Source of the DNA: a virus
Strand: one strand, 5' to 3'
Length of the DNA stretch: 22,870 nt
Virus record (IMG/VR): IMGVR_UViG_3300036828_000615
Span: 64,001 to 86,870 of that record
How positions within the stretch are numbered: position 1 is the first letter of the stretch; each line of letters opens with the position of its first letter. The notes below the pieces were generated by a model that was not told where the DNA came from, ran no database searches, and was given only the letters and a program-made list of their open reading frames with translations. The position numbers and the translations under genes are program-made. Below, piece by piece: positions 9,387 to 21,135 of this stretch.

Positions 9387-11171
9387 CTAGTGCCCGACCG
9401 GGAAGCCGTAGTCGACCAGCGGTCGCTCTCCGGCTTCCCGCAGCGCCAGGATATGGCGCATAAGCCATTGTCGCCCGTTGGCGTTTCGATAGGGCTTCAT
9501 CAGTGCTTCGTTGCGGGCGATGTCGCGATCCCAGCCCGGCGAGTCGGCCTTGGCGTCGTGGTATTCGCCGGCGTTGGTGTTGTGCTCGAACGCGTAGACA
9601 TTGCCCTCGATGCGCTTGAGCCTCGACAGCGTCTGCACGATCGCGGTGAACGCGGTGTCCTCCCAGCCCCAGCCGCAGTTGCCGGTGAAGTACACCTTGC
9701 CGTTGCGCCGGGCCAGCCATGTCCCGTTCTCAGTCGTCGGGCACCACACGATTCCCTCGACCTGGTGACGCGTGTGTGTCCCCTTGGACAGCATGAACCG
9801 GCGTTGACGTCGGATCGACACGACGGTCATGCCGTAGCCGTACTTCGTCATAACCGGCCTGGTCACCGACGAGGTGGCATAGCCAGCCAGGATGCACGCG
9901 AACTGGAATGACTCAGCGGCAGCTTGGTTCTTCTGGGCCAGCTGCTGCTCATAGGACCGGGTCCGGGTGTGACCGTCAGCCCAGAGGGAGGTCTGGATGA
10001 AAGATTCCAGCTGAGACTGGGTGAGCGATATCAGGAACTCGTGGGTGACCACCCGGTTCGGGGCACAGGACTGGACGAGAGCACCGGCTTCAGCGTTGAG
10101 GTTGAAAATGGCGGTCTGCCCCGCACGGGTTTCCCGCCAGGCTGGAGGTACTTCGGGCGAGCGGCCCGACCGTCGCTGTGCGCCTATCGGTGGCCCCAGT
10201 GATCGACGCAGTGCCGAGCGGATCCTTTCGCAGTGGTCCGGGTTGACGGTTACCGACTGGCTGATCGAAACGGTTCTCGCCCGGGAGCCGTCCCGGTTCC
10301 GGGAGATGCAGCCCTCGGTCCAGAACCAGCCCACTAACTCCACGAAAGCGTCGGTGTATTTCGGCTCCGTGGGCAGGTCCGAGCAGTGAGCAGCGGTCGG
10401 AACGTAGTCCTGCTGCTGGAAGGTTCCCGTCGTAGTCCACGTCCGACGGGTCCGTCGGAATGATCTCTTGCCAACCTGGCGGACGTTCCAGTTCCGCTCG
10501 ACCGGCCAGCGGTGATCCATCGTGCTCAACGAGGAGTGGGTCTTGCTTTCGATCCCGACCATCTCCCGGCTACCGGGGTAGACGTTCACCCGCTGAAGCG
10601 GTTTCCATTCGCTCATAGCCGTGTCGTGGTTCAGGGTTAAGACAGGCTCACCGATAGTGATATCGGTATATCGCTTCCAGCCCTGACTGGTCAGAATCTC
10701 GGTGGGCTCATCCACGCAGAACTCCGGCGGTTGCCCGCCCAGACGCCAGTACTCGGTCTGGGTGGCGACCAGACAGCCACCCACCCCGTTGACCCCGTCA
10801 CCGTCCCAGGAGGTGGTCATGTAGGGCGCCCGGTCCAGCTGGTCGAACGGCGTATAGAGGTAGTCGGTGCTCAGAATGCGGTAGTGGGTGAAGGGCCAGC
10901 AGACGCACTGCTGCGGGTCGGCGACCGCCGCGCGCACATTGTCGAGCACGGGAATCGTGTCGGCGTCGCAGATCACCACGACCTCGGTGCGGGCCTTGCG
11001 CACCGCGTTGTTGCGGGCCTGGGCGAGGCTGAAGATCTCGGTGTCTGAGTCGGCGGTGACCACCGGCCAGCCGACCTGCTCCCAGAACGCCATCACCCGC
11101 TCGAAGATCGGGATCCGCGACGGGGACGGGCGCCACGGAATGCACACGGTGGCTTCAGGTTTCGTGGACAC
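9387..11171 (-). CDS. Glycosyltransferase (GT-A, DxD) interrupted by an intein
   Basis: 594 residues from GTG 11171, which has GAGG six bases upstream; an ATG at 11177 is possible. The host protein is 247 residues after removing the intein. Residues 1-151 give a GT-A fold: VCIPWRPS, then VVVICDADTIP with the metal-binding DAD at 69-71, then VNGVGGCLVATQTEYWRLGG. After the intein comes CGWGWEDTAF, the GW-x-ED acceptor motif of polypeptide-GalNAc-transferase/Glyco_transf_7C-like enzymes. The N-extein ends PPEF and the C-extein starts C, so splicing restores PPEFCGWGWED. The start overlaps the upstream GT gene by 17 bases. Likely substrate is a nucleotide sugar, with a virion protein or a glycan as acceptor; acceptor unknown. 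Confidence 0.88.
   Translation of the reverse strand: MSTKPEATVCIPWRPSPSRIPIFERVMAFWEQVGWPVVTADSDTEIFSLAQARNNAVRKARTEVVVICDADTIPVLDNVRAAVADPQQCVCWPFTHYRILSTDYLYTPFDQLDRAPYMTTSWDGDGVNGVGGCLVATQTEYWRLGGQPPEFCVDEPTEILTSQGWKRYTDITIGEPVLTLNHDTAMSEWKPLQRVNVYPGSREMVGIESKTHSSLSTMDHRWPVERNWNVRQVGKRSFRRTRRTWTTTGTFQQQDYVPTAAHCSDLPTEPKYTDAFVELVGWFWTEGCISRNRDGSRARTVSISQSVTVNPDHCERIRSALRRSLGPPIGAQRRSGRSPEVPPAWRETRAGQTAIFNLNAEAGALVQSCAPNRVVTHEFLISLTQSQLESFIQTSLWADGHTRTRSYEQQLAQKNQAAAESFQFACILAGYATSSVTRPVMTKYGYGMTVVSIRRQRRFMLSKGTHTRHQVEGIVWCPTTENGTWLARRNGKVYFTGNCGWGWEDTAFTAIVQTLSRLKRIEGNVYAFEHNTNAGEYHDAKADSPGWDRDIARNEALMKPYRNANGRQWLMRHILALREAGERPLVDYGFPVGH
9678..10718 (-). mobile_element. Intein with LAGLIDADG homing endonuclease (347 aa)
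   Basis: Starts at Cys1 (TGC, 10718-10716) in CVDEPTEILT, the block A form. Block B is HSSLSTMDHRW with the TxxH histidine. Two dodecapeptide motifs of a DOD endonuclease are present, FVELVGWFWTEGC (about 125-137, Glu) and SFIQTSLWADGHT (about 239-251, Asp), separated by about 100 residues. Block F is VWCPTTENGTWLARRNGKVY and block G ends FTGN followed by extein Cys+1 at 9677-9675. The last Asn is preceded by Gly instead of the usual His, a tolerated variant in some inteins. All splicing and cutting residues otherwise look intact, so the element is probably active and mobile. Confidence 0.93.
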
Positions 11172-11835
11172 CGTCATCCTCGTCGTGCACGTACTTCCAC
11201 ATCCCGGGCCCGGCCGGACGCCGCCACACCGAGTGGATCGTCGGCACGTCCACCAGTGTGTAGCCGGCGGCCACCAGCGCGAAGGACTCGTAGACGTCGG
11301 CGCCCCAGTGCGCGTAGGGGCCGTGGATGTCGGGCGGATAGGGGACCGCGCGCAGCGCCTCGATCCGCGCCGCGAACACCCCGCCCTGGATGTGCAACTC
11401 GGGCAGCGCGGAGTCAAAGCCCATCGCGGCCGGCGGACCCGCGTCGGCCAGCGTGCCGGTCATCCCCGCCCTCGGGTTGTTGATCAGCGGCGTCAGCAGA
11501 TCCCAGGGCCAGCTCGGGTCGTAGCTGTGGCCGTGGTTGGTGCAGACGTAGAGCAGGTAGGGATGGCGCGCGAGCTCGGCGGCCACGTTCAGCGCCGGCC
11601 CGCTTTTCAGGTTCGCCCCGCGCTGCCAGCGGTAATGCGGTTCGCACACGCCGTTGTCGTACACCGCCGTGGCCAGCTTGTTGGCGCGCCGCGTGCTGTT
11701 GTCGATGACGATCAGCTCGGCGTCGAGCTTGTGGCGCAGGTGTCCCAGCGCGGGCACCAGGTCGCGCTGCAGCCGGACCAGGGCCCGGTCCTCGTTGTTG
11801 TGCACGATCATCACCGCGCTGACCCCGAACCTCAT
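11155..11835 (-). CDS. Glycosyltransferase family 2-like protein
   Basis: 226 residues from ATG 11835, which overlaps the stop of the methyltransferase gene (ATGA). The start MRFGVSAVMIVHNNEDRALV and the ELIVIDNSTRR strand-turn near 40-50 are typical of the nucleotide-binding half of GT-A enzymes. The middle YLLYVCTNHGHSYDPSWPW stands where a DxD would be expected, but no DxD is present there. The later HIQGGVFAARIEALRAV and HWGADVYESFALVAAGY segments resemble the acceptor half. It may be metal-independent, or act with its neighbours on the same glycan. It overlaps the intein-bearing GT downstream, suggesting one operon. Confidence 0.75.
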   Translation of the reverse strand: MRFGVSAVMIVHNNEDRALVRLQRDLVPALGHLRHKLDAELIVIDNSTRRANKLATAVYDNGVCEPHYRWQRGANLKSGPALNVAAELARHPYLLYVCTNHGHSYDPSWPWDLLTPLINNPRAGMTGTLADAGPPAAMGFDSALPELHIQGGVFAARIEALRAVPYPPDIHGPYAHWGADVYESFALVAAGYTLVDVPTIHSVWRRPAGPGMWKYVHDEDDGVHET

Positions 11836-12482
11836 CGCGCCGCCTTGCGCAGGATCACCAGCGAGGGCCAGAAGTGGGCGAACTCGACCGCATAGCCGCG
11901 CCAGAACCGCTCGGGATACAGCGGTTCGGTGGGGCGCCAGTGCAGCCGGTAGCTCACCTCGTCGACCATGCCTTTGAACCACTGCACCGACGTCGGCCCC
12001 TGCGCCCGGGCGCCCTGCGGGTCTTCGAGCTCGGTGTAGGCCAGCCAGGTGTCCTCGCAGACGTAGAACCCACCGGGGCGGACGAGCGGCCACACCGCGG
12101 CGAAGGTGGCGATGGTCAGCTCGGAGCAGTGACTGGCGTCGTCGATGACGATGTCGAACAGGCCGTAGTCCTCGGCGATGCGTCCGGCCAGACCGGCGTC
12201 GGCCTGATCGCCGGTGAGAACCCGCACCCGGCCGGGTAGGTCCAAGGTCTTGGGCTGGTTGTCGATACCGATGACGGTGGCCTTGTCGAAGTAGTCGCTC
12301 CACATGCGCAGCGACTCGCCACCGGCGCGGGGATCGCCGTAGCCGCCGACGCCGTACTCGACCACGGTGATCGGCTCGAACCGCAGGTGCGAAAAATACC
12401 GCTCGTAGATCAGGGTGTAGGCGTGGTGCTCGGTGGACTTGTCGGTGTGATGCCGGATGGCCAGCTCATTAAGGGTTTCCAT
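11832..12482 (-). CDS. SAM-dependent O-methyltransferase, MycE/TylF-like
   Basis: 216 residues, ATG 12482 behind AAAGGGG. The start carries TDKSTEHHAYTLIYERYF, a hallmark of the MycE-like sugar O-methyltransferases. SAM motif I is VVEYGVGGYGDP (40-51), followed by ESLRMWSDYF and IGIDNQPK (71-78). DIVIDDASH at 110-118 holds the acidic and His residues that bind metal in this family. The family methylates hydroxyls of deoxysugars in macrolide and glycan pathways. Lying between glycosyltransferase genes, it probably methylates a phage-made glycan. The 3' end overlaps the next GT gene by ATGA. Confidence 0.85.
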   Translation of the reverse strand: METLNELAIRHHTDKSTEHHAYTLIYERYFSHLRFEPITVVEYGVGGYGDPRAGGESLRMWSDYFDKATVIGIDNQPKTLDLPGRVRVLTGDQADAGLAGRIAEDYGLFDIVIDDASHCSELTIATFAAVWPLVRPGGFYVCEDTWLAYTELEDPQGARAQGPTSVQWFKGMVDEVSYRLHWRPTEPLYPERFWRGYAVEFAHFWPSLVILRKAAR

Positions 12483-12642
12483 GTGCCCCTTTCACCCGTG
12501 CTGCGCCGCAGAGCACACAGCCGCCGTGCTCGAGATATTCATGCGGACACGGCGGCGGCCCGTGGCGCACCGCGCAACCCCACGGGCACCGCCCATCGGG
12601 CGTGATGTCGGTGCGGCCACAGAAATGGCACGGTGCAGGCAT
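12469..12642 (-). CDS. Small cysteine-rich zinc-binding protein
   Basis: From ATG 12642 the product is 57 residues; a TTG at 12663 would add seven. It has CHFCGRTD near the start, CPWGCAVRH in the middle, CPHEYLEHGGCVLCG near the end: eight cysteines with spaced histidines, enough for two zinc sites. The 3' end overlaps the methyltransferase start by 14 bases. No catalytic domain can be seen. The ribosome site is weak. It may be a protein- or nucleic-acid-binding zinc ribbon; function is unknown. Confidence 0.6.
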   Translation of the reverse strand: MPAPCHFCGRTDITPDGRCPWGCAVRHGPPPCPHEYLEHGGCVLCGAARVKGAHGNP

Positions 12643-12689
12643 CGGCCTATTGTCGGCCCACAACCCCGGCGTGGTTGCCCCGACACGCG

Positions 12690-13406
12690 CTAGCCATCTG
12701 GCTTACTCCATCCGTTGCAGTACCCCAGCGGCGTCGCCGCTGTCGCCCAGTTCTGTCGCGTTCCGCAGCTCCAGGCCCGCCGCTCACTGCGTGCCTCGTC
12801 GGGCCCGTACCCGATCGGTGTGTCATCGGCGTGATCGACCAGGCTGGGGACGGTGTAGCAGATGGGCATCTCCCAGTTCTGCGCCCACCGCGACACCGCC
12901 AGCGGATACTCCACTCGCGCATACCGCTGCTCAGCCGCGCCGAGTGTCTCGACCAGCTCGGGCAGCATCGCCTCGATCAGCGAGGTGCGGATCGCGTACC
13001 CCACCGACCCGATCAGACAGTCCGCGGTGATCCAGGCCAGATTGCGGCGCTGCGCCGTCATCAGGGCTGCGCGCATCTGGCGCTGCACCTGGCCCGAAGG
13101 ATTGCCGGTACCCAGGTAGAGCCCGATGACAGGGGCCGGCGTGTGCCGCACCGCCTGGGCGATCTCGACACGGAAGGCCGACACCGGCTCGGCGTCGTCC
13201 TCGAGTACCACGCTCCAGCCGGTGTCGTACCCGGCCAGCTCGCCCAGCACCTTCAGATGGTTGCCCGCACAGCCCAGCGTGCCGTCGTCGACGTTGCAGT
13301 AGTCGGCCTTGACGGCATCGAACAGCGCGTGGGCCCGCTCGACCCGCGCGCTGTGGGCGACGATGCCGATCGCGATGTGGTCGACGATGCCGATCGCGAT
13401 GCTCAC
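12690..13406 (-). CDS. Glycosyltransferase family 25-like
   Basis: 238 residues from GTG 13406, overlapping the preceding stop (GTGA). Features of LPS-type GT25 enzymes: LGCAGNHLKVLGELA near 44-57, then WSVVLEDDAEP with the EDD metal/nucleotide-sugar motif at 69-71, and GSVGYAIRTSLIEAMLPEL later. GT25 enzymes transfer galactose or glucose from UDP-sugars to lipooligosaccharide or to hydroxylysine; the phage substrate is unknown. The N-terminal strand is odd: IAIGIVDH and IAIGIVAH are tandem copies from a 24-bp duplication, either of which could serve as beta-1. The tail after PSLVDHADD is probably disordered. Confidence 0.72.
   Translation of the reverse strand: MSIAIGIVDHIAIGIVAHSARVERAHALFDAVKADYCNVDDGTLGCAGNHLKVLGELAGYDTGWSVVLEDDAEPVSAFRVEIAQAVRHTPAPVIGLYLGTGNPSGQVQRQMRAALMTAQRRNLAWITADCLIGSVGYAIRTSLIEAMLPELVETLGAAEQRYARVEYPLAVSRWAQNWEMPICYTVPSLVDHADDTPIGYGPDEARSERRAWSCGTRQNWATAATPLGYCNGWSKPDG
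13359..13406. repeat. 24-bp tandem duplication at the GT25-like gene start
   Basis: GACGATGCCGATCGCGATG occurs at 13359-13377 and again at 13383-13401, a 19-base exact match with a 24-base period. It encodes IAIGIV twice and keeps the frame, so it is a recent in-frame slippage or duplication. Confidence 0.8.
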
Positions 13407-19615: not shown

Positions 19616-19774
19616 ATGGCAAATGCGGAGGTGTGTCGGCACTGCGGCGAACCCATCCTCAAATTCAACTTCCGCGACCAGGGCGAGCAGTGGTGGCACG
19701 CCAACCCGCTGCGCGGATCCACCACCTATCTGCACTGCGCCGCCGACATTGACCGGCCCAGGGCCGCGCCGTGA
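19616..19774 (+). CDS. Zinc-knuckle miniprotein (52 aa) upstream of DNA methyltransferase
   Basis: ATG 19616 begins MANAEVCRHCGEPILKFNFR, with a C-x2-C knuckle at 7-10, then QWWHANPLRGSTTYLHC with a third cysteine and histidines that could complete the site. The TGA overlaps the methyltransferase GTG start (GTGA), so the pair are translationally coupled. Similar Cys-His mini proteins occur in actinophages near DNA-modification genes; role unknown. Confidence 0.65.
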   Translation: MANAEVCRHCGEPILKFNFRDQGEQWWHANPLRGSTTYLHCAADIDRPRAAP

Positions 19775-21135
19775 AGCCCTACTACCACGACGATCAGCTC
19801 ACCCTGTACCACGGCGACGCCCTGGCCGTAGCGCGCGAGCTGCCCGATCGCGCCGTGGACTGCATTGTCAGCAGCCCGCCGTATTACGCGCTGCGTGACT
19901 ACGGCGACCCCGGCCAGTACGGGCTCGAGGACACCCCGGCCGATTATGTGGAGCACCTGCGCGCGCTGTTTTTCGAGCTGCGCCGGGTGCTGGCCGCCGA
20001 CGGGACCTGCTGGCTGGTGCTGGGCGACAGCTACAGCAGCAGGAAGGGCGCGGCCGCCGACGACAAGAACCTGATGGGCATGCCCTGGCGGGTGGCTCGT
20101 GCGCTGCAGCAACCGCAGTACGTCGGCAAGATTCACAATGAAGCGGACCGCGCGTGGCTCGCTGCGATGGTCGACGGTGAAGGCTGCATCGCCATGCATC
20201 GCCGGATGTCTGAAGAACGTAAGCGACCGACCTTCGCGCCGGTGGTCCAAGTGGCTAACACCAATCTGGGATTACTTGAACGCTGCCAACAGGTAGCGGG
20301 CGTTGGGACAATCTCGCATAGCGACCGCGGGCGGAACCGGCGCATTTATCGCTGGTGTGTAATGAGTAACCAAGCGCGTCAACTACTTCGCGAGCTATAT
20401 CCGCACCTAATTGCCAAACAACCGCAAGCTCGCGCCGCGGTAGCCGCATCGTGCGGGGGTGGCCGCTGGGGAGAATCGTCGCCCGGCGCGGAGCGCGCAT
20501 GGTTAGAGATAAAGGCCCTCAACAAGGGCGGCACGCATGATGGCGGATGGCCCGTCCCGGCCAGCATGTTCACTCCTGGATGGATTTTGAGAAATGCCAT
20601 TATTTGGTCGAAGCCCAACACGATGCCCGAGTCGGTCACCGACCGGCTCGCCTCGCGCTACGAGCACGTGTTCCTGTTCGCCAAGCAGCAGCGGTATTTC
20701 TTCGACCTCGACGCGATTCGCGAAGCGCATTCGCCGATCACACTGGACCGCTCGGCGCGTTCGGAGCGCAAACCGTATTCGGCCCGCGGCAGGAGCGGGA
20801 TGGCCAAGGTCCCCGGCCTGGGCGCCTACGGCGCGATCTCGGCGGGCAGGCGCACCCTCAACGAGGCCGGCGCCAACCCCGGGGACGTGTGGTCGGTCCC
20901 CACCGAGAAATTCCCCGGCGCGCACTTCGCCGTCTATCCCGTGGCGCTGGCGCAGCGCGCTATTTCCGCCGGGTGTAAACCCGGCGGAGTCGTATGCGAT
21001 CCGTTCAACGGCAGCGGTACCACCGGGCTGGCCGCCCAGAAAACCGGGCACCACTACATCGGCATCGACATCAGCCGCGACTACCTGGACCTGGCCCTGA
21101 GCACGCGCTTGAGCCAGGCCGCCCTGGACTTCTGA
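19771..21135 (+). CDS. DNA methyltransferase (N4/N6 class) with homing-endonuclease-like insertion
   Basis: 454 residues, GTG 19771. The catalytic SPPY (motif IV) is at 35-38 in VSSPPYYAL. AIIWSKPNTMPESV (276-289) and RYEHVFLF follow, and the SAM motif DPFNGSGTTG is at 410-419, with GIDISRDYLDLAL after it. This order (IV before I) is the beta class that methylates cytosine N4 or adenine N6. Without residues 116-269 the protein would be a normal 300-residue phage MTase reading ...ALQQP then GWILRNAIIW. It may protect phage DNA from host restriction. No cognate nuclease gene is beside it. The 3' end overlaps the convergent gene by 55 bases. Confidence 0.88.
   Translation: MKPYYHDDQLTLYHGDALAVARELPDRAVDCIVSSPPYYALRDYGDPGQYGLEDTPADYVEHLRALFFELRRVLAADGTCWLVLGDSYSSRKGAAADDKNLMGMPWRVARALQQPQYVGKIHNEADRAWLAAMVDGEGCIAMHRRMSEERKRPTFAPVVQVANTNLGLLERCQQVAGVGTISHSDRGRNRRIYRWCVMSNQARQLLRELYPHLIAKQPQARAAVAASCGGGRWGESSPGAERAWLEIKALNKGGTHDGGWPVPASMFTPGWILRNAIIWSKPNTMPESVTDRLASRYEHVFLFAKQQRYFFDLDAIREAHSPITLDRSARSERKPYSARGRSGMAKVPGLGAYGAISAGRRTLNEAGANPGDVWSVPTEKFPGAHFAVYPVALAQRAISAGCKPGGVVCDPFNGSGTTGLAAQKTGHHYIGIDISRDYLDLALSTRLSQAALDF
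20116..20577 (+). mobile_element. In-frame LAGLIDADG-type insertion in the DNA methyltransferase
   Basis: About 154 codons inside the MTase gene that are absent from the basic enzyme plan. The block starts QYVGKIHNEADRAWLAAMVD, and AWLAAMVDGEGC is a LAGLIDADG dodecapeptide with the acidic Asp/Glu. TFAPVVQVANTNLGLLERCQ, GVGTISHSDRGRN and YRWCVMSNQARQLLRELYPH follow, as in single-motif LAGLIDADG domains. There is no Cys/Ser first residue, no TxxH block and no terminal Asn, so intein splicing is unlikely. Codon third positions use more A/T (TTA, GTA, CTA, AAT) than the rest of the gene, suggesting separate origin. Boundaries are estimates. Confidence 0.75.

Follow-up and report, generated by a model that had tools for sequence, protein, structure and literature searches.

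What is the 347-residue in-frame insertion that interrupts a phage glycosyltransferase (GT) gene, and does its removal set when the enzyme becomes active? The gene lies in a window of 22,870 nucleotides, which corresponds to bases 64001-86870 of an 86,870-base IMG/VR metagenomic virus record. The minus strand of the window contains genes encoding the terminase large subunit (TerL), portal, protease and capsid-like proteins, as well as a small-terminase-like gene, the last named from its position alone. Upstream of this block there is a run of sugar-related genes, two of them with matches to a glucosyltransferase and to a methyltransferase, respectively. The insertion (Table 1) is very probably a full-length mobile LAGLIDADG intein located in the active-site loop of a GT-A enzyme of the B4GalT type, and most likely a selfish element that splices constitutively, not a regulator.

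Table 1. Location in the window of the interrupted glycosyltransferase gene and its parts.
Feature	Position	Strand	Remarks
Precursor CDS (glycosyltransferase with the intein inserted)	9387..11177	-	596 aa from ATG 11177; GTG 11171 is an alternative start
N-extein, GT-A donor half, 153 aa	10719..11177	-	PHROG 1721 galactosyl transferase match, residues 8-149; profile hit in own genome
Asp-Ala-Asp (DxD) motif, GT residues 71-73	10959..10967	-	Invariant across GT alignments
Intein, 347 aa, splicing domain and LAGLIDADG homing endonuclease	9678..10718	-	Precursor residues 154-500
Cys1, block A nucleophile	10716..10718	-	68/68 in the intein family
Block B TMDHRW with Thr66, His69 and Trp71 (B:12)	10506..10523	-	Intein alignment
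First LAGLIDADG helix DAFVELVGWFWTEGCI, acidic Glu135	10305..10352	-	Model helix 123-135; E or D in 65/68
Second LAGLIDADG helix region QSQLESFIQTSLWADGH, acidic Asp248	9969..10019	-	Model helix 234-248; D in 66/68
Block F GIVWCPTTENGTWLAR with Cys326 (F:4)	9708..9755	-	Cys in 68/68
Block G VYFTGN with Thr345 (G:5), Gly346 (penultimate) and Asn347	9678..9695	-	Intein family alignment
Cys+1 codon TGC	9675..9677	-	The DNA of four empty relatives was read and has ATC or GTG (Ile/Val) here
GWGWED acceptor/catalytic motif, intact within the C-extein	9657..9674	-	Sequence
C-extein, 96 aa	9390..9677	-	Sequence comparison

Host enzyme and empty alleles

The joined exteins give an enzyme of 249 residues from the ATG at 11177, or of 247 residues from the GTG at 11171, two codons downstream; the 247-residue ligated product foreseen in the initial annotation thus holds for the GTG start and not for the ATG start. 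The match to PHROG 1721 "galactosyl transferase" scores 114.2 bits in the joined form and 98.8 in the interrupted ORF, Pfam Glyco_tranf_2_2 rises from 21.2 to 26.4 bits on joining (just under the cut-off), and Glyco_transf_7C, also just under the cut-off, is matched in the joined form only. The AlphaFold2 model of an uninterrupted homologue, L012 (pLDDT 90.9), matches beta-1,4-galactosyltransferase B4GalT1 with a Z score of 16.9. In the F-x-GWGxED segment, Phe151, Trp154, Gly155 and Asp158 (L012 numbering) are invariant or nearly so, and Asp71-Ala-Asp73 is invariant. The phage enzyme therefore shows the GT-A fold, as modelled on this empty homologue, together with the DxD and GWGxED motifs of beta-1,4-galactosyltransferases (GT7) and related GT-A enzymes; however, it is only about 15% identical to the beta-1,4-galactosyltransferases. 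The record contains one copy of the GT and one intein of this kind, so GT function should depend on splicing. The sugar-related cluster immediately upstream of this gene (11155-13406, minus strand) shows a glucosyltransferase match, a methyltransferase-like gene and a third gene which looks like a glycosyltransferase by its start only and has no family match; the cluster is partly kept in L012, L022 and L026.

Uninterrupted homologues, 58-73% identical, are present in 23 loci (some of them identical), and most have the same terminase genes next to them. The insertion site is genuine, since the nearest relatives are uninterrupted and read PPEF-[I/V]-GWG[W/H]ED. Among 17 distinct close homologues showing F-x-GWGxED without insertion, the residue at the Cys+1 position is Ile in 13, Val in three and Tyr in one. 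The nearest empty homologue, L012, has the same gene order (its TerL is 82% and its portal 88% identical) and the sequence PPEF-I-GWGWED; at the DNA level, its ATC codon corresponds to the intein plus TGC in the query, and the next 32 bases are identical. The in-frame insertion is thus missing from close homologues at the same genomic place, and its flanks join exactly. An intron is excluded, since the frame is open and conserved at the protein level throughout the insertion.

Phe153 precedes the intein, and the variable residue immediately upstream of GWGWED follows it. The intein had been proposed to split the GW-x-ED motif, which would form only on splicing, but the motif is entire in the C-extein, one residue downstream of the intein. 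Nor is CGWGWED the ancestral join: the empty homologues carry Ile or Val, as F-[I/V]-GWGxED, and only the intein allele has Cys+1. Because the empty site has no nucleophile at +1, the element must bring its own Cys or Ser codon, and the way in which homing alters its target can be tested cleanly at this site.

Anatomy and predicted fold of the intein

The initial annotation located the intein exactly (10718 to 9678, ORF residues 154-500), and the complete LAGLIDADG intein that it described is borne out: Cys1, T66-x-x-H69 (Thr at B:7, His at B:10), two LAGLIDADG helices (123-135 and 234-248) with E135 and D248, the terminal Asn347 and Cys+1 are all present. The AlphaFold2 model of the insertion (mean pLDDT 96, pTM 0.93) predicts an intein with an endonuclease, and its top PDB matches, which are endonuclease-bearing inteins, point to a HINT fold: TliVMA is the closest (Z 25.0, rmsd 4.1 over 301 residues), followed by PI-PfuI (Z 22.2) and PI-SceI (Z about 21). 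As for the homing endonuclease, the fold matches PI-SceI and I-DmoI.

The intein aligns end to end with the inteins of three other phage glycosyltransferases (53-66% identity) and over its full length with inteins of portal, terminase, methylase, sigma-factor-like and other genes (about 22-66% identity overall), carried by Gordonia, Mycobacterium, cyanobacterial and environmental phages; it is therefore not a chance resemblance. The insertion has no internal stops and, when its codons are compared with those of the inteins of two of these glycosyltransferases (L091 and L172), position 2 is far more conserved (about 77%) than position 3 (about 43%), which indicates that the intein protein is under selection. 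Pfam and NCBIfam models do not recognise the query intein. The same models, run on 50 members of the intein family (alignment A6), give one weak intein_Nterm match and five LAGLIDADG_3 matches; since they hardly detect the family, such inteins are probably overlooked in routine annotation.

Inteins at the same site and in other genes

The search for the same insertion point that had been suggested finds related inteins at the very same site in at least three more phage glycosyltransferases, L091, L092 and L172, with Ser, Ser and Cys at +1, respectively. The query intein is 65.9% identical to that of L091, 53.2% to that of L092 and 63.2% to that of L172, and the corresponding extein identities are 52.4%, 29.0% and 62.9%. 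On the GT tree, intein presence needs three changes and the carriers are on scattered branches; on a quick intein tree without L172, the GT inteins of L091 and L092 fall into a single clade with that of the query (SH-aLRT 99). Scattered presence together with clustered inteins fits movement between GT genes, as judged from these trees; the alternative is one early gain with repeated losses. That the intein has a higher protein identity than the extein (66% versus 52% for L091) was not accepted as proof of a recent transfer: at third codon positions, which look saturated, it has diverged as much or more, and identity there gives no hint of a recent exchange. The scatter of the carriers over the GT tree is the better evidence of movement. 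A search of bacterial genomes yielded only two relatives of the intein, neither within a glycosyltransferase.

The same sequence family includes LAGLIDADG inteins of actinophages in the portal of Gordonia phage Hail2Pitt, the TerL of Gordonia phage GMA3 and gp135 of Mycobacterium phage Pinkcreek, with 38-41% identity to the query over the whole intein, and mycobacteriophage methylase inteins with about 27% identity. All of them share Cys1, the F:4 Cys and the TGN ending with the query, but differ from it in host gene and insertion site. An unannotated relative, about 28% identical, is found in gp289 of Synechococcus phage B23 (L002 1854-3368), noted as T4 gp55-like. The ORF adjoining the L092 glycosyltransferase (L174 5787-7826) contains a different intein, which starts with CLSGDTEV, ends with HN before Cys and has a different middle domain.

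In a 2016 survey of mycobacteriophage inteins, all phage intein hosts are, once spliced, nucleic-acid-binding proteins (PMC5050341), and a full-text literature search found no glycosyltransferase intein, in agreement with the earlier remark that this host is unusual. The GT host and the insertion site are apparently new; inteins as such are well known, and the element is an ordinary mobile intein. A sugar-transfer enzyme thus joins the phage intein hosts, with one conserved site, F-x-GWGxED, filled in four glycosyltransferases whose identity goes down to 29%.

Splicing chemistry and the penultimate glycine

The precursor would fold and splice itself soon after translation. Cys1, or possibly Cys326 of block F, would attack the Phe153-Cys1 bond, the N-extein would be transferred to Cys+1 and Asn347 would cyclise without a penultimate His; the halves would then join as PPEF-CGWGWED, giving the active 249-residue (or 247-residue) enzyme with Cys beside GWGWED. 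The freed intein is expected to cut intein-free GT genes at the conserved F-x-GWG-x-ED site, a target taken from the insertion point alone, and this cutting would lead to the copying of the element between co-infecting phages.

The residue that starts splicing was considered in the family of 68 inteins (the query and 67 relatives). Cys1 and the F:4 Cys are present in all 68, the latter partly imposed by the search pattern; the block C pattern does not impose it, and 33 of the 34 members with this pattern keep Cys1 and the Trp-Cys-Thr triplet. Trp B:12 is found in 62 of the 68, Thr G:5 in 66 and Gly G:6 in 64. At +1, the query has Cys, whereas 40 of the relatives have Ser, 22 have Thr and five have Cys. 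The query has the full triplet (W71, C326 and T345), as do 60 of the 67 relatives. This triplet is characteristic of class 3 inteins such as Msm DnaB-1, Mch DnaB1 and AceL NrdHF (the latter with Met for Trp), which also resemble the family in the splicing-domain fold and in the Ser or Thr at +1 of most query relatives. Class 3 inteins, however, by definition have no nucleophile at position 1 (PMC7891396, PMC5050341), whereas the nucleophile residue of class 1 inteins, Cys1, is present in the query, which is therefore not filed as class 3.

It is nevertheless conceivable, although rather unlikely, that Cys326 and not Cys1 starts splicing by class 3 chemistry, or that both can; this concerns the first step only and leaves the identity as a mobile intein unaffected. 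Besides the triplet, the Ser or Thr at +1 in 62 of the 67 relatives is as in class 3 inteins (PMC5222942), and among splicing domains without an endonuclease, the AceL NrdHF intein of class 3 matches best (Z 18.5 with an rmsd of 1.8 over 144 residues; next match 16.4); it likewise lacks both assisting His (PMC7891396). Against this, retention of Cys1 in the whole family would be odd if it were unused, an F:4 Cys is common among class 1 inteins too (PMC4031507), the query itself has Cys at +1, and the Z gaps between inteins are modest. According to the account in PMC3196547, Tori and Perler proposed that class 3 inteins descend from a phage intein whose first nucleophile had been lost. A phage family with Cys1 plus the triplet could resemble such an ancestor, a lead drawn from residue patterns; the stronger proposal, that splicing in this large family can start from either Cys and that the family is a living form of the Tori-Perler progenitor, is more speculative still and improbable. 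The signature renders the origin of class 3 testable. Other intein-like insertions, two in the TerL gene of L172 (4086-7196) and one in that of L018 (5540-8347), appear to start without Cys (for example ALDVNTPVLTT...) and show Trp and Cys near the class 3 positions.

Whichever Cys acts first, the query intein ends in Gly346-Asn347, as the initial annotation had noted. With neither a penultimate His nor the His usually found in block F, Asn cyclisation must be assisted in some other way. The proposal that splicing controls when sugar transfer starts, with slow or conditional splicing setting the moment at which the GT turns active during infection, is very unlikely. In its favour, the precursor is expected to be inactive with the insertion next to the catalytic GWGWED, the residue before Asn347 is not the canonical one, and variation at this position has been proposed to tune splicing (PMC5050341). 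But 64 of the 68 family members have Gly there, in widely differing host genes, and for this reason it was also rejected as a defect or a special regulator; most close relatives of the GT have no intein. Moreover, the class 1 intein of the Bethlehem RDF (gp51), a mycobacteriophage intein with measured splicing, has the same penultimate Gly and splices completely in its native form, and Gly-to-His slows its splicing (PMC5050341); its host gene differs from that of the query, and the two are likened by description, not by sequence. The timer idea is weakened by this family norm and by complete splicing with Gly, and these comparisons agree better with a selfish homing element that splices constitutively. 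A decayed, splicing-dead intein in a dispensable gene is hardly credible: inactive phage-type inteins exist, for example Arth_1007 (PMC3196547), but here all the catalytic residues examined are intact, there are no stops, position 2 is strongly conserved and the predicted fold is confident.

The plus strand of the window shows a further in-frame insertion, of about 140 residues, in a DNA methylase gene (19771-21135). It is placed between WRVARALQ and GWILRNAIIW, resembles LAGLIDADG at its start (EADRAWLAAMVDGEGCI), lacks the ends of an intein and matches PHROG 5046 "HNH endonuclease"; among phages, it matches only Caulobacter phage homing endonucleases. An intein-free endonuclease insertion in mycobacteriophage methylases (PMC9957025) is the comparison case for this gene.
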